Assembly: GCA_900759225.1 (NCBI GenBank)
Contig: CAAEUM010000145.1
Span: 1-12,169, forward strand
Length of the DNA stretch: 12,169 bases
Origin: Lachnospiraceae bacterium
Lineage (GTDB): Bacteria; Bacillota; Clostridia; Lachnospirales; Lachnospiraceae
Direction: 5' to 3'
In this document: positions 5,170 through 9,728 of the stretch, piece after piece
Numbering within the stretch: position 1 is the first letter of the stretch
How the letters are laid out: every line of letters begins with the position of its first letter
Made by a program: the position numbers and the translations under genes
The notes under the pieces: model-generated
Database searches by the model: none
Seen by the model: the letters and a program-made list of their open reading frames with translations, nothing else
What the model was told of the DNA's origin: nothing

Positions 5170-5242
5170 TGCGCCTTCGGGGGCTCGAACCCCGGACAAA
5201 TAGATTAAGAGTCTACTGCTCTACCAACTGAGCTAAAGGCGC
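5170..5242 (-). tRNA. tRNA-Lys (anticodon CTT), copy 1
   Basis: A 73-base cloverleaf. The 7-pair acceptor stem is GCGCCTT/AAGGCGC, the D arm is GCTC/GAGC, and the anticodon stem GTAGA/TCTAT has loop CTCTTAA, giving anticodon CTT, which reads AAG (Lys). The T arm is CGGGG-TTCGAGC-CCCCG and the discriminator base is A. CCA is not encoded. A consensus promoter and an intrinsic terminator flank it. Positions 5125-5242 match 9611-9728 at 110 of 118 bases. Confidence 0.97.
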
Positions 5243-5343: not shown

Positions 5344-5496
5344 TGTAACAGTTCAGCCATGCGAAGATTTAGGCAGTAAAACAACATTGAAAGCTTGCTT
5401 TCATAAGCGTTTTACTGCCTAAATCTTCATAGGGCGGACGCCCGATGCTTCTTGTCCGCTGCAAGCGGGCAAGAAGATGCACGGCTGAACTGTTAC
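5344..5496. mobile_element. MITE-like multiply inverted element with 8-bp flanking direct repeat
   Basis: About 153 bases without a plausible gene. The terminal inverted repeats are 18 bases (5345-5362 and 5479-5496, 17 matching). Nested inside are a perfect 20-base inverted repeat (5363-5382 with 5409-5428) around the near-palindrome GAAAGCTTGCTTTC, a small GGGC-GGAC-GCCC hairpin (5432-5443), and a 13-base inverted repeat (5448-5460 with 5464-5476, one mismatch). The folded form would be a closing stem carrying three arms. The exact octamer CCAATTTT lies immediately outside both ends (5336-5343 and 5497-5504), as expected of target-site duplication on insertion. This looks like a non-autonomous transposed repeat; I cannot name the family or its transposase. 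It lies between the purine permease stop and the tRNA-Lys promoter. It could also act as an mRNA-stabilising structure. Confidence 0.7.
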
Positions 5497-5558: not shown

Positions 5559-6926
5559 TTATTCATCCAAAGCAACCTTACCATGCCGGGGAATGGGCGC
5601 CTCTTCTGTTTCTTCTTCATCCAGGTTTTTTGGGAGAAGGAGATTTAAGGCTACGGCAGTGATGGTAGCAATTACTACAGGAGAGGTTCCGAAAATAGTC
5701 TTTGCCCATTCAGGAAACAGGGCGAAGCAGTCAGCAACCTGGATAACGCCGCTTCCAAGGGCTACAGACAAGCCCACAACAGCGGTATTGTGGGTATTTA
5801 AGCCTTCCTTTACTACCAGCTTAATTCCGGTCATAGAAATCATTGCGAAAACAGAAACAGTTGCTCCGCCTAAAACACTGGACGGGATTGTAGTCAGCAG
5901 GGCAGCAAATTTTGGCACCAGCCCGGCTAAGATGATCATAACAGCAGCCAGCCCCAGAACACAGCGGTTTACCACCTTTGTCATGATCACAATTCCTACG
6001 TTCTGGCTGAAGGTTGCAGTGGGAAGGCCGCCGAAAATAGAACCAAGGATACTGATCACACCATTCCCGATAATGCCTCCGCACATTTCCTCGTCCTTTA
6101 CACCCCGGTTTAATCCGCCGCCTGCAGTGGAGGTGAAGTCACCCATAATCTCCAGGGAGCCCACTACATACATAATTGCCATAGAGATAATGGCTGTAAT
6201 ATCAAACTTCAATCCGAAGTAGAATGGAGATGTAAATTGAAACCAACTGGCGTCCTTAATCCCTTCAAAGGAAACCATTCCCATTGCCAGGGCCATCAGG
6301 TAGCCGCAGATAATTCCAATGAGGATGGAGGCCAGCTTGCAGATCCCCTTTGTAAAGTAGCTGAAAAAGGTTACGATTGCCAGGGTTGCAATGGCTAAAA
6401 ACCAGTGGCGCGGGCTTCCGAAATCCGGGGCTCCTGCTCCTCCGGCCATATAGTTAATGGCAGTGGGATAAAGTGACAGGCCAATGGTAAATACAACCGT
6501 TCCTGTAACAAGAGGTGTAAACAGGCGGCTTAGCCTGCGGTAAAATACACCTACAAGAATTGCCACGATGCCGCCAACCATCTGCGCCCCTAATACAACA
6601 GGCATGCCAAATTGACCGCCCAATGCAATCAACAGCGGTACATGGGCGAAGCTGGCTCCCATAATAACCGGCAGTCCAGAGCCGGCAAAGCGGCCCAGCG
6701 GAAACAGCTGAAGAAGCGTTGCAAGGCCGGAGATTAACAGGGAGGCCTGAATCAGACGTACCTGGTCAGCGGCATTGAGCCCGGTTGCACCGGATAAAAT
6801 AATGGCAGGAGTGACACAGCCTACAATCATTGCTACAACATGCTGCATTGCAAGCGGGAAAGCCTCAGCTGCCCGCGGAATCCCATTTAATTCTGTTACA
6901 CGTGCGAAATGTCCAGTTTTATTCAT
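5559..6926 (-). CDS. NCS2/NAT-family purine (urate or xanthine) permease
   Basis: A 455-residue polytopic nucleobase-cation symporter-2 protein, the usual family length. The first helix holds the family's QH motif (Q28-H29). The signature motif QNVGIVIMTK (308-317) fits the NAT pattern, and a conserved membrane glutamate (E259, in VGSLEIMGD) lies where substrate-binding residues sit in UraA and UapA. The alternating hydrophobic segments agree with the 14-helix fold. The gene follows the predicted 8-oxoguanine deaminase by 18 bases with GGGGGAG upstream of ATG 6926, so the two form an operon. The deaminase product is urate, which makes urate or xanthine the likely cargo, by import or export; sequence alone does not separate these from uracil. 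No clear U-rich terminator follows. Confidence 0.9.
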   Translation of the reverse strand: MNKTGHFARVTELNGIPRAAEAFPLAMQHVVAMIVGCVTPAIILSGATGLNAADQVRLIQASLLISGLATLLQLFPLGRFAGSGLPVIMGASFAHVPLLIALGGQFGMPVVLGAQMVGGIVAILVGVFYRRLSRLFTPLVTGTVVFTIGLSLYPTAINYMAGGAGAPDFGSPRHWFLAIATLAIVTFFSYFTKGICKLASILIGIICGYLMALAMGMVSFEGIKDASWFQFTSPFYFGLKFDITAIISMAIMYVVGSLEIMGDFTSTAGGGLNRGVKDEEMCGGIIGNGVISILGSIFGGLPTATFSQNVGIVIMTKVVNRCVLGLAAVMIILAGLVPKFAALLTTIPSSVLGGATVSVFAMISMTGIKLVVKEGLNTHNTAVVGLSVALGSGVIQVADCFALFPEWAKTIFGTSPVVIATITAVALNLLLPKNLDEEETEEAPIPRHGKVALDE

Positions 6927-6944: not shown

Positions 6945-8300
6945 TTAACCCATGATATATGCGTTTACAAGCTGATTTGCCTTCTCTGCAATGACGGCCT
7001 CGTCAATCCCCGTCAGCTTCCCTTCTTTTACTGCAATTTTTTCGTTTACAACGGTGTAATCCACACTTCCCTTTAACCCCACAGTGGACAGCATGGATCT
7101 TACATCGAACTGGGCTCCCACAAGCTCCAGCCGGTTTAAGCGGATCAGGAAGAAATCGGCGGCCATTCCTACAGCCAGCCGTCCTAATTTTTCCCGGCCA
7201 AGAAGGGCTGCGCTTCCCCGGGTAGTCATTTTCAGAATGTCATAACCGGAGGGCGCATTGCGGCTGCTATTTAAGCGGTGCAGCAGATAGGCTGCCCGCA
7301 TTTCTTCCAAAAGATTGGAGCCGTCATTGCTGGCAGAGCCGTCCACTGCCAGACCTACAGGCACACCTGCCTTAAGCATCTGCGGAATTTTGGCGATGCC
7401 GGAGGAGAGCTTCATATTGGAAATCGGGCAGTGAGCCACGCCTGTTTTTGTTTTGGCCAGATAAGCGATCTCTTCATCTGTAAAATGGATTCCATGGGCA
7501 TACCATACGTCAGGTCCGATCCAGCCAAGGCTTTCCATGTACTCCAGGGGGCGCATATGGAAGTGGGAGAGGGTAAATTGCTCCTCATCCTTTGTTTCAG
7601 CCAGATGGGTATGGAGCCGTACCTTTAATTTCCGGGCCAGCTTTGCGGATTCCCTTAGGAGCTCACCTGTTACACTGAAGGGGGAGCAGGGAGCAAGGGC
7701 AACCTGATGCATGGAATAAGGGTCATCATCATGGAACTTTGAAACTGCTTCCTCTGATGCAGAGAGAATCTCATCTACGGTCTGTACCACGCTGCCAGGA
7801 GGCAGGCCTCCGTCTTTTACACTTAAATCCATACTTCCCCTGGTAGCGTGAAAACGGATTCCAAGTGCATCAGCAGCCGCAAACTGGGCGTCCATGATCC
7901 CGTCTGCATGGGCCTTTGGAAAAACGTAATGATGGTCAAGACAGGTTGTGCAGCCTGTTTTCAGCAATTCACCCATTCCGGTTAAAGAGCTGTAGTAGGT
8001 CACATCCTCATCCACATTTTTCCAGATTTCATATAAAGTTTTTAACCATGGAAATAATTCCATATTTTGAACCTGCGGTAAATTTCGACTGAAGGTCTGA
8101 TATAAATGATGGTGTGTATTAATCAATCCGGGATACATCACCATGCCAGAAGCGTCAATCATATCATCTGCTGCCACAGCCTCCTTCCCGATGTAGGTAA
8201 TAACCCCATCTTCCGCCAGAACATTTACATCCTGCAGGACGGCATCATCCGCATCACAGGATACGAGATGAGCCACGTTCTTGATCAACAGTGTTCCCAT
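6945..8300 (-). CDS. predicted 8-oxoguanine deaminase (amidohydrolase superfamily)
   Basis: A 451-residue cytoplasmic metal-dependent aminohydrolase of the COG0402 type, predicted to turn 8-oxoguanine into urate plus ammonia. Metal-site features are visible: HHH at 63-65, H232 in LHTHLAE, H269 in AHGIHF and D320 in VDGSASND. The blocks YQTFSRNLPQ, HCPISNMKLSSG and VDGSASND are as I recall for the 8-oxoguanine deaminase branch rather than SsnA or plain guanine deaminase, but related hydrolases share much of this, so the substrate is a prediction. The start is ATG 8300 (MGTLLIKN), with AAGGAGG nine bases upstream; a start at 8342 would add 14 charged residues inside the leader. It heads a two-gene operon with the purine permease, behind a long structured leader. 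Confidence 0.87.
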   Translation of the reverse strand: MGTLLIKNVAHLVSCDADDAVLQDVNVLAEDGVITYIGKEAVAADDMIDASGMVMYPGLINTHHHLYQTFSRNLPQVQNMELFPWLKTLYEIWKNVDEDVTYYSSLTGMGELLKTGCTTCLDHHYVFPKAHADGIMDAQFAAADALGIRFHATRGSMDLSVKDGGLPPGSVVQTVDEILSASEEAVSKFHDDDPYSMHQVALAPCSPFSVTGELLRESAKLARKLKVRLHTHLAETKDEEQFTLSHFHMRPLEYMESLGWIGPDVWYAHGIHFTDEEIAYLAKTKTGVAHCPISNMKLSSGIAKIPQMLKAGVPVGLAVDGSASNDGSNLLEEMRAAYLLHRLNSSRNAPSGYDILKMTTRGSAALLGREKLGRLAVGMAADFFLIRLNRLELVGAQFDVRSMLSTVGLKGSVDYTVVNEKIAVKEGKLTGIDEAVIAEKANQLVNAYIMG

Positions 8301-8348
8301 AATCACATGCCTCCTTCTGCAAATTTTCTTTTCTTTGCACACTCGACT

Positions 8349-8461
8349 ATATGACTGGTATACTGCTGGCGGTTCGGGCGTTCACGAGGCGCCCATACGA
8401 ATTGCATATATGATACAAACCGTACACCGCGTGAATCCAGCTATGTTTTAAACAGCTATAT
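8349..8461 (-). promoter_or_regulatory. structured 5' leader, candidate riboswitch, of the 8-oxoguanine deaminase-permease operon
   Basis: The predicted transcript has about 190 untranslated bases. On the minus strand ATATAGCTG (8461-8453) pairs with CAGTCATAT (8357-8349) as an outer stem with one mismatch. Inside, GCTGG (8441-8437) pairs with CCAGC (8369-8365) and CGGTTTG (8422-8416) with CGAACCG (8376-8370). That last stem encloses two abutting hairpins, ATATG-CAATT-CGTAT (8409-8395) and GGGCG-loop-CGCCC (8394-8376). The 9-base loop of the second contains CGTGAA (8386-8381), a perfect complement of TTCACG (8435-8430) in the joining strand, so a 6-pair pseudoknot is possible. A further short stem, GCAAA/TTTGC (8333-8317), sits just before the ribosome binding site. 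I do not recognise a known class; the purine-riboswitch core is not seen. Confidence 0.55.
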
Positions 8462-8496
8462 CGATATGATTTTTTCAAAGAACAAAGACAGTTAAC

Positions 8497-8525
8497 ATTA
8501 TAACAAGCGTATAAATCGTAAACAA
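8497..8525 (-). promoter_or_regulatory. promoter of the purine operon
   Basis: On the minus strand TTGTTT (8520-8525), a 17-base spacer and a perfect TATAAT (8497-8502) preceded by TGT, an extended -10. Initiation near 8490 would give a leader of about 190 bases. The upstream mscS terminator lies just before it, so the operon is an independent unit. Confidence 0.8.
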
Positions 8526-8540
8526 TGGTAATAAATGCAA

Positions 8541-8595
8541 AAAAACAATAAAAAAATTGTGAAAATCCACCAAAATACAGACGGATTTTCACAAT
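8541..8595 (-). terminator. intrinsic terminator of the mscS-family gene
   Basis: A perfect 13-pair stem (8583-8595 with 8556-8568) closes a 14-base loop and runs directly into a T-rich tract on the minus strand (8555-8541). It lies about 40 bases after the channel stop codon. Confidence 0.92.
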
Positions 8596-8603
8596 CACTT
8601 ATA

Positions 8604-8622
8604 AGTTCAGCCATGTGAAGAT
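8604..8622. repeat. solo fragment of the MITE-like element end
   Basis: These 19 bases match 5350-5368, spanning the terminal and inner inverted repeats of the element near the permease, at 18 positions. The rest of the element is absent. The fragment sits 13 bases from the mscS stop codon, next to its terminator, and may be a decayed copy or an end left by deletion. Confidence 0.6.
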
Positions 8623-8634
8623 AAACACAATCGT

Positions 8635-9555
8635 TTAATTTGGGGTTTTCAAGTTGACATCTAACTGGTTAAAGGGAATTTCGATTCCAGCGCGGTCAAA
8701 TTCTTCCTTAATCTGCTCTGTGATCTGCCATTTTACGGTCCAGTAGTCTTCTGTGGCAGTCCATCCCCTGGCTCCTAATATGACAGCGTTGTCAGCCAGC
8801 TGGTCAACAAAGACAGAGATGGTTTCATCCTTTAATACAAGAGGATTTTCGTGGTAAAGCCGGTTAAGAATATCCTTGGCAGCTTTTATGTCGGAGGAGT
8901 AGCCGATTCCTACGGAGATATCGACCCGGCGCTTTTCCTGGGCTGTTACATTGGTGATAATATCGTTGGCCAGGTTTCCGTTGGGGACTGTGATCTTTTT
9001 GTTGTCTACGGTTACAAGGGTTGTGTAGACAAGACCGATATTATGAACGGTACCTTCTACGCCCTGGCATATGATATAGTCATCAATGGAGAAGGGGCGC
9101 ATTACGAGGATCAGGATGCCTCCGGCAAAGTTTGCAAGGCTTCCCTGGAGGGACAGGCCAATAGCCAGGGTGGCAGAACCTAACAGGGCAAGAATCGAGG
9201 CGGAGGGGATTCCGATTTTTTCAAGTGCAATAAAAATGGTAATGGCATAGGCCAGGGCATTTGCCAGTGAAATCAGGAATTTGCTTAATCCCAGATCCAG
9301 GTTCATGCGGCTGAATGTCTTTTTTAAGAACTTTCGCAGGGAATGGGCTGCGCGCATGCCGATCACGATGATCAGAGCAGCAATGGCCAGACGGTATGCC
9401 AGCGTCAGAAGGGCTGGTGTCCACCCACGGATGGTATCTAAAATGACATGGGGCTTTAGCTGCTGCAAATCTGTCTGGACTTCAGCGGCAATGGCCGGTG
9501 TCTGAATTGCTTCAAGGGTCTGGGAAATGGAAGTGTCTGCTGTAAATAGGATCAT
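8635..9555 (-). CDS. mscS: small-conductance mechanosensitive channel, MscS family
   Basis: A 306-residue pore protein that would open under membrane tension to release solutes after osmotic downshock. An N-terminal extracytoplasmic stretch of about 45 residues precedes predicted helices at about 46-68, 90-112 and 117-152. The last is the typical Gly/Ala-rich pore helix (GLSLQGSLANFAGG, 133-146) ending in MRPF. The cytoplasmic beta domain shows VPNG (190-193) followed by a C-terminal alpha/beta part. Length and order match MscS/YggB (286 residues in E. coli). ATG 9555 has AAGGAGAGG close upstream. No promoter is evident in the 48 bases between this start and the tRNA-Lys terminator, so readthrough from the tRNA promoter is a possible source of transcription. 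A strong terminator follows. Confidence 0.95.
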   Translation of the reverse strand: MILFTADTSISQTLEAIQTPAIAAEVQTDLQQLKPHVILDTIRGWTPALLTLAYRLAIAALIIVIGMRAAHSLRKFLKKTFSRMNLDLGLSKFLISLANALAYAITIFIALEKIGIPSASILALLGSATLAIGLSLQGSLANFAGGILILVMRPFSIDDYIICQGVEGTVHNIGLVYTTLVTVDNKKITVPNGNLANDIITNVTAQEKRRVDISVGIGYSSDIKAAKDILNRLYHENPLVLKDETISVFVDQLADNAVILGARGWTATEDYWTVKWQITEQIKEEFDRAGIEIPFNQLDVNLKTPN

Positions 9556-9655: not shown

Positions 9656-9728
9656 TGCGTCTTCGGGGGCTCGAACCCCGGACAAATAGATTAAGAGTCT
9701 ACTGCTCTACCAACTGAGCTAAAGACGC
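9656..9728 (-). tRNA. tRNA-Lys (anticodon CTT), copy 2
   Basis: A 73-base cloverleaf identical to copy 1 except for one acceptor-stem pair: GCGTCTT/AAGACGC here against GCGCCTT/AAGGCGC, a compensatory C-G to T-A change. The anticodon loop CTCTTAA gives CTT (Lys), the discriminator base is A and CCA is not encoded. It has a perfect promoter and its own terminator. Confidence 0.97.

Follow-up and report, generated by a model that had tools for sequence, protein, structure and literature searches.

What controls the 8-oxoguanine deaminase gene of a Lachnospiraceae bacterium whose coding region is preceded by a leader of about 190 nucleotides (nt)? The locus lies on contig CAAEUM010000145.1 (assembly GCA_900759225.1), of which a stretch of 12,169 nt, here called the window, was analyzed as a whole. 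All coordinates are positions in the window, and the leader, the deaminase gene and the purine permease gene that follows are on the minus strand. Comparison with related leaders reveals a conserved RNA in which covariation exceeds phylogeny-aware nulls for the helices P2a and P4 and, more weakly, for a pseudoknot. The leader is interpreted as a cis-regulatory RNA that, judging from sequence comparison, probably represents an undescribed riboswitch class sensing the deaminase substrate or a close purine. A new riboswitch had been proposed in an initial annotation of this DNA. What stands of that proposal is a conserved, covarying, structured cis-regulatory RNA outside the 4227 Rfam families searched, while its small-molecule part stays conditional.

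Leader survey and conservation

The survey uses the best 80 of 90 loci from a deaminase scan of genome contigs. Leaders were sought by blastn with the window leader and then with a covariance model, R1, built from 12 leaders. R1 finds the element in the window and at 15 of the 80 deaminase loci, every time just upstream of the deaminase gene, with the match ending about 30-55 nt ahead of it. Genome searches added the leaders L095 and L097-L101 and a partial leader, L096 (leaders and genomes are identified by L and G numbers), which brings the total to 22 leaders with 19 distinct sequences; the leaders L098-L100 are identical to L097. Leaders L003, L007, L020 and L065 are outside model R1, and L096 was left out of all alignments. 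The initial annotation had pointed to homologous leaders as its check, and both conservation and covariation were found in these upstream of the deaminase.

A core of 34 nt is 94% identical among leaders, compared with 39% at fourfold-degenerate sites of the deaminase (means over 136 pairs from the 17 leaders with an unsplit gene). L073, the leader of a split gene, is outside this count and enters the gene tree via the first piece of the gene only. The internal loop, the adjoining helix P2a and a bulge are invariant in all 19 distinct leaders apart from one U/C position and the covarying P2a pair. RNA and gene decay together: L095 and L096 have a broken or truncated deaminase, and the leader itself is degraded (L095) or has its 5' half replaced (L096).

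The element is a rare, clade-limited RNA. Among the carriers are the named taxa Lacrimispora, Hungatella, Hespellia, [Clostridium] asparagiforme (Enterocloster) and [Clostridium] citroniae, the first four being Lachnospiraceae. Larger genome draws were run under stricter filters. An even draw of 397 genomes from the family of G001 contains three carriers, counting the centre genome; the order draw yields 1 of 392, the centre genome itself, and the class draw 4 matches in 391, one being the centre genome. Three weak class-level matches (expectation value, E, of 0.01-0.09) lack the invariant core and were therefore rejected. At the genus level, carriers number 8 of 17 genomes for G005 (two degraded), 6 of 25 for G001, 1 of 2 for G003 (the centre) and 4 of 11 for both G441 and G439, with the identical 11 genomes both times. 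The exact core was found in no viral contig, and these searches revealed no gene context other than the deaminase. Forty of the 65 leaderless loci were scanned with Rfam at the gathering score, which returned five transfer RNAs (tRNAs) only and no known riboswitch.

Fold model

The RNA is modeled as an outer helix P1, an asymmetric internal loop J1, helix P2a, an AG bulge on the 3' side, helices P2b and P2c, two hairpins P3 and P4, and a pseudoknot, in which the P4 loop pairs with the segment linking P2b to P2c. The parts are as follows.

8453..8463, minus strand: P1 5' strand, CGAUAU-A-GCUG in the window, pairing with 8357-8347, with the mismatch G8462.A8348
8445..8452, minus strand: J1 5' strand, UUUAAAAC, the core internal loop, invariant in 19 of 19 distinct leaders bar one U/C position
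8442..8444, minus strand: P2a 5' strand, RUA, with A-U in 11 and G-C in 8 of 19 leaders and zero mismatches
8437..8441, minus strand: P2b 5' strand, GCUGG, from comparison
8430..8435, minus strand: pseudoknot 5' strand, UUCACG, pairing with 8386-8381
8395..8425, minus strand: P3 hairpin, variable, drawable by eye in most relatives with differing letters and accommodating large inserts
8376..8394, minus strand: P4 hairpin, GGGCG/CGCCC, with the pseudoknot 3' strand CGUGAA (8386-8381) in its loop
8365..8372, minus strand: 3' strands of P2c and P2b, CCG CCAGC, P2b from comparison
8358..8364, minus strand: AG bulge (8364-8363), P2a 3' strand UAU (8362-8360) and J1 3' strand AC (8359-8358), invariant in 19 of 19 leaders save the covarying P2a position
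8347..8357, minus strand: P1 3' strand, CAGU-C-AUAUAG, from helix comparison and the null test

In the fold model P1 pairs CUAUAU-A-GCUG with CAGU-C-AUAUAG and has a single mismatch in the window. J1 sets UYUAAAAC opposite AC, beside the three pairs of P2a (RUA/UAY) and the AG bulge, and P2b is GCUGG/CCRGC. The outer and inner stems of the initial annotation can be drawn in the window, as can its two abutting hairpins, and the comparison backs them. Its pseudoknot count is exact as well, since CCTCGTGAA (8389-8381) pairs with TTCACGCGG (8435-8427) at eight of nine positions and the UUCACG/CGUGAA block is perfect. The extra CC/GG pairs in this nine-base count compete with P2c, and relatives keep about 4-6 base pairs (bp) of the pseudoknot. 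Stem P2c found no backing apart from conservation and was set aside as a supported helix. In the lowest-energy fold of the window leader alone, a different hairpin takes the place of P1.

The pseudoknot had been presented as the main feature. It is conserved and covaries weakly, but the near-invariant part of the RNA is the internal loop below it, and the arm that carries it is missing in L065, a leader with neither P3 nor P4 nor pseudoknot. L003 keeps the pseudoknot with other letters (CAUAAGC/GCUUAUG), and L007 and L020 have large P3 inserts. Because the core is near-invariant and the arm variable or missing, the internal loop is the likely binding site and the pseudoknot probably a brace.

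The P3 insert of L020 (L020:2620-2948) is a long, nearly perfect inverted repeat; the element of 259 nt has a folding energy of about -127 kcal/mol and resembles a small mobile element.

Covariation analysis

Over 12 leaders, 93.2% of cells are paired, and there are 18 double-change cells compared with 6.0 in shuffles. Because shuffles ignore ancestry, alignments were simulated along the leader tree. The helix tests use 1000 simulations started from the consensus, and the all-pairs test uses 200 null maxima. In the covariation alignment the pseudoknot 3' strand of L003 was placed by hand, and P3 inserts were cut where the middle part exceeds 75 nt; L095 is outside the gene tree.

For P2a and for P4, none of the 1000 null alignments reaches the observed pairing. 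The pairing of the outer six pairs of P1 is reached by 14 of 1000, and a pseudoknot of five pairs is equaled in pairing by 13 and in double changes by 2. The P2a pair ranks first of 2654 in the all-pairs test, above 95% of the null maxima. It changes four times on the deaminase tree, in which several forks are open; two changes suffice if these are resolved favourably. Null subsets matched for the number of changes give 7 of 514 for pseudoknot pairing, 1 of 514 for its double changes and 0 of 436 for P4. When L003, L095 or both are dropped, the observed double changes are reached per 1000 simulations by 0-1 (P4), 0-3 (P2a) and 0-7 (pseudoknot), and the observed pairing by 0, 4-16 and 17-30, respectively; for the pseudoknot minus the hand-placed L003, the values are 17 for pairing and 7 for double changes.

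These tests bear on the notion that the segment is conserved intergenic DNA, such as operators, coding sequence or repeats, with no RNA function. Conserved AT-rich repeats could serve as DNA sites, but the compensatory changes exceed the phylogeny-aware nulls, the segments lie downstream of the promoter and length differences are not multiples of three, which makes this explanation extremely improbable.

Comparison with known RNA classes

None of the 4227 Rfam families searched matches the leader: a scan of the leader at E up to 10 gives no riboswitch family, and one of the whole window at E up to 5 gives no purine family. A known Rfam class was rejected on this basis, in line with the check set out in the initial annotation. 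A cmscan run with the minimal leader L065 at E up to 10 gives no riboswitch family, nor do the leaders of 14 of the 15 carrier loci (all save L006) at the Rfam gathering score; the Rfam elements that these loci do contain are located outside the leader. The two carrier genomes searched with RF03054 contain no match above the cut-off (0 of 2). The guanine-type purine riboswitch with its three-way junction and kissing loops, 8-oxoguanine variants included, was likewise rejected because no purine family matches; its absence had been noted by eye from the outset. The 8-oxoguanine riboswitches, variants of the guanine three-way junction whose class is mentioned in PMC9295807, have a possible ligand and purine genes as their common ground with the leader, which matches no purine-type Rfam model. 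Titles and abstract openings in the open literature on 8-oxoguanine, xanthine/NMT1, guanine-deaminase or Lachnospiraceae purine riboswitches do not describe the element.

The xanthine/urate riboswitch NMT1 (RF03054) offers the nearest comparison (PMC7373994, PMC8266621). NMT1 consists of P1, J1 (GAAGCG/AU), a 3-bp P2a, a bulge that extrudes C34 and G35, and then P2b; C11 forms a pair with G35, A39 takes part in a triple, and G10 and U40 read xanthine (PMC8266621). Both RNAs have the layout P1, large J1, 3-bp P2a, two-base 3' bulge ending in G, and P2b. In both, the J1 3' strand has two bases, A first, and the J1 5' strand contains AA and a C near P2a. NMT1 bases would find counterparts in the leader's C before P2a, in two A's opposite A8/A9, in the G of the bulge and in the A on the 3' side of J1. 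The leader differs in its J1 5' strand (UYUAAAAC instead of GAAGCG), in the lengths of its loop strands, in having no counterpart of A16.C33 or G12, and in its extra U's. Mapped by eye, G10 and U40 correspond to A and C, respectively, and all 19 leaders agree in this. The leader also has the extra arm of P3, P4 and pseudoknot, and its hosts are Lachnospiraceae, whereas those of NMT1 are Proteobacteria. On this comparison NMT1 is the closest known architecture and the leader falls outside the NMT1 family, with a likeness that is mapped by eye and serves as a lead. The U-to-C change would reverse the arrangement of donor and acceptor by which xanthine (O2, N3-H) and guanine-type bases (N2-H, N3) differ.

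The leader might belong distantly to a known purine class, either NMT1/xanthine or guanine-type, and escape the Rfam models. The NMT1-like order of parts, from P1 to P2b with the bulge ending in G, and the two-base J1 3' strand starting with A speak for such kinship (PMC8266621), but cmscan at E up to 10 returned neither NMT1 nor a purine family for the window leader or L065, and the loop strands are unlike in length and at the ligand-reading positions. This kinship is considered distinctly unlikely.

Leader 5' end

The following features frame the structured region.

8497..8505, minus strand: extended -10 element TGTTATAAT, read from the sequence as TG-T-TATAAT (8505-8497)
8472..8483, minus strand: boxA-like element GTTCTTTGAAAA, close to the transcript 5' end, from its likeness to the boxA consensus and to boxA-like copies in ribosomal RNA (rRNA, rrn) operons
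8464..8470, minus strand: AUCAUAU ahead of P1, modeled as unpaired
8310..8316, minus strand: Shine-Dalgarno sequence AAGGAGG, from the sequence

The extended -10 is unlisted in a consensus promoter scan, whose -35 rule it fails. Several relatives have -10-like elements at a comparable distance by eye. From the position of the -10, the transcript would start at about 8490, giving a leader of about 190 nt (about 8490-8301, minus strand). Both the extended -10 and this length had been stated in the initial annotation and are read directly in the sequence.

The motif GYTCTTTGANAA is matched by 16 of the 19 distinct leaders and unmatched in L043 and L095. It is one base off the published boxA consensus, which is gammaproteobacterial (GYTCTTTAANA; PMC5725501). 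The rrn operons of two related genomes contain the boxA-like GTACCTTGAAAA and near variants, 16S having been found in 2 of the 12 genomes examined, and the divergent leader L020 has GCACCTTGATAA, near GTACCTTGAAAA. The rrn copies of G006 and G402 are unlike the boxA-like stretch in the leaders of the same genomes (L065 and L043).

Antitermination leaders of rRNA and suhB (PMC5725501) share a boxA-like sequence near the transcript start. The window leader differs in that a conserved pseudoknotted RNA follows this element, and in the two unmatched leaders. It is nonetheless conceivable that the leader acts mainly in Nus-factor antitermination or Rho control, with boxA recruiting NusB/NusE and the fold serving as a structural or timing element. 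The position of GYTCTTTGANAA near the 5' end of 16 leaders, the closeness of L020 to the rrn copies and the published case of boxA outside rRNA, the suhB leader (PMC5725501), would fit; but L043 has an intact core with no match to the boxA-like element, rrn copies and leader stretch disagree within G006 and within G402, and a boxA role needs no invariant internal loop. A leader working mainly in this way is very unlikely.

An alternative outer helix, UCUUUG/CAAAGA, is perfect in many leaders and has uncompensated breaks in L001, L065, L003, L020 and L043 by eye; because of these five breaks it was rejected, and a boxA-like reading suits the 5' element better. UCAUA/UAUGA, another conceivable outer pairing, was rejected too, as by eye it was not found in the window, L004, L006, L003, L020 or L095.

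The window leader has three copies of UCAUAU, at 8464-8469 (5' of P1), 8408-8413 (in P3) and 8349-8354 (in the P1 3' strand). In 16 of 19 distinct leaders the first copy is kept as UCAUAUC, and the P3 copy, as UCAUAUA, is exact in 9 of 19.

Proposed mechanism and ligand

The leader would set how strongly the 8-oxoguanine deaminase is expressed, and the permease too at loci that have one. The invariant internal loop flanked by P1 and P2a, UYUAAAAC opposite AC, would take up a purine, and the pocket would be closed by a putative cross-strand contact between the bulged G at 8363 and the last loop C at 8445. P2c, P3, P4 and the pseudoknot would form a bracing arm.

Deaminase and carrier had been named as the controlled genes. 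Both are present in the window, but the permease lies 3' of the deaminase in only 8 of the 15 leader-carrying loci. As every leader found precedes a deaminase gene, the deaminase is the constant target, and the other 7 loci, with a deaminase and no permease, point to deaminase chemistry. Characterised relatives act on guanine and isocytosine as well as on 8-oxoguanine (PMC6186785), deaminating all three, and the wider enzyme cluster accepts guanine analogues promiscuously (PMC13054789; PMC6186785). 8-oxoguanine is the most likely candidate ligand, with guanine, xanthine and urate next.

A more specific version, which is rather unlikely in its full detail, would be a dedicated 8-oxoguanine (or guanine) riboswitch with an NMT1-like pocket, acquired by descent or convergence and altered by U-to-C and G-to-A changes, with a pseudoknotted brace and a coupling to boxA such that sensing acts on transcript elongation. 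If the NMT1 likeness is real, the leader would be a natural example of how changed letters in a pocket retune it between xanthine and ligands of the guanine type. If the broader riboswitch interpretation is true, a purine-sensing RNA class is absent from Rfam, and its action would explain how some Lachnospiraceae monitor oxidized or catabolic purines. A precise ligand test becomes possible with one 140-nt RNA and a few purines.

Control of expression and counter-evidence

Consistent occlusion of the ribosome binding site was rejected, since it is not predicted in an accessibility test of 17 leaders (L020 and L095 were left out). Accessibility falls slightly in L003 (0.51 to 0.40) and in the window (0.66 to 0.49). 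By eye, the short stem noted earlier ahead of the ribosome binding site (8339-8334 paired with 8323-8318) occurs in the window and L002 only. A pairing of the ribosome binding site with GCCUC of the P4 loop was dismissed as well, since the window, L002, L004 and L006 are the only leaders in which it is seen by eye. As the window leader contains no terminator-like site and no conserved pairing was found that would sequester the ribosome binding site, we infer control via translation initiation or Rho/Nus-dependent elongation; Nus- or Rho-linked control is possible from the sequence.

A number of results weigh against a riboswitch with the fold and ligand proposed above. With regard to structure, the folding energy of the window leader is ordinary (z = -0.82, with 43 of 200 shuffles equally good), so the case depends on comparison. 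In the all-pairs test the P2a pair alone is individually significant, and null alignments are more variable than the real ones in most helices. Pairing does not exceed the null for P2b (51/1000, not beyond 5%), P2c (91/1000) or the inner three pairs of P1 (169/1000), and the change-matched subsets give 8/144 for P1 and 45/87 for P2c. A pseudoknot of four pairs is equaled in pairing by 23/1000 null alignments and is not beyond the null in double changes (85/1000), and L009, L018 and L095 have mismatches in the pseudoknot. L073 combines an intact leader with a deaminase gene that is split in two frames, although this split may be recent or an error, as the record is a metagenome assembly. With regard to function, adding the aptamer fold changes the predicted accessibility of the ribosome binding site by no more than 0.04 in 15 of 17 leaders, and neither this test nor the terminator scan of the window leader reveals an expression platform. 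The promiscuity of the enzyme cluster leaves the ligand uncertain, and the tie of the leader to one gene family leaves room for a bound protein.

Such a protein would be a purine-responsive RNA-binding protein that recognises the internal loop and the UCAUAU repeats and controls the gene. The three copies in the window leader, the retention of the first copy in a stretch modeled as unpaired and the missing expression platform are consistent with this. Against it, invariance is focused in an asymmetric internal loop, as in an aptamer, the P3 copy is exact in fewer than half of the leaders, and no regulator gene was recognised beside the window deaminase, with neighbours at other loci scanned in part. 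A protein-binding leader is on balance unlikely, and the riboswitch interpretation is retained.

Genomic locus

Two genes follow the leader, the second beginning 18 nt after the first.

6945..8300, minus strand: 8-oxoguanine deaminase (amidohydrolase), NF006055 at 564.8 bits against a cut-off of 532, ATG at 8300
5559..6926, minus strand: NCS2 purine permease, TIGR00801 over its cut-off, pbuX at 410.3, slightly below the cut-off of 414.15

The best solved relatives of the deaminase are 3hpa (404 bits, 'amidohydrolase') and 7ww2 (385 bits, '8-oxoguanine deaminase'). Upstream, an MscS-type gene ends at 8635, ahead of the sole terminator-like site within 8200-8700 (8596-8555), so that the leader is probably under its own promoter.

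In the locus of L003, a Clostridiales-1 RNA (RF01699, an orphan small RNA) occupies L003:2092-2253 and precedes the leader by about 0.5 kb on its upstream side. In the window, the region is flanked by two near-identical tRNA genes about 4.4 kb apart (5170-5242 and 9656-9728, minus strand), with the anticodon CUU, for lysine, read by eye. A long hairpin at 5353-5438, between the permease gene and a tRNA gene, gives a sub-threshold match to an Rfam microRNA family on both strands and is probably a terminator or repeat.
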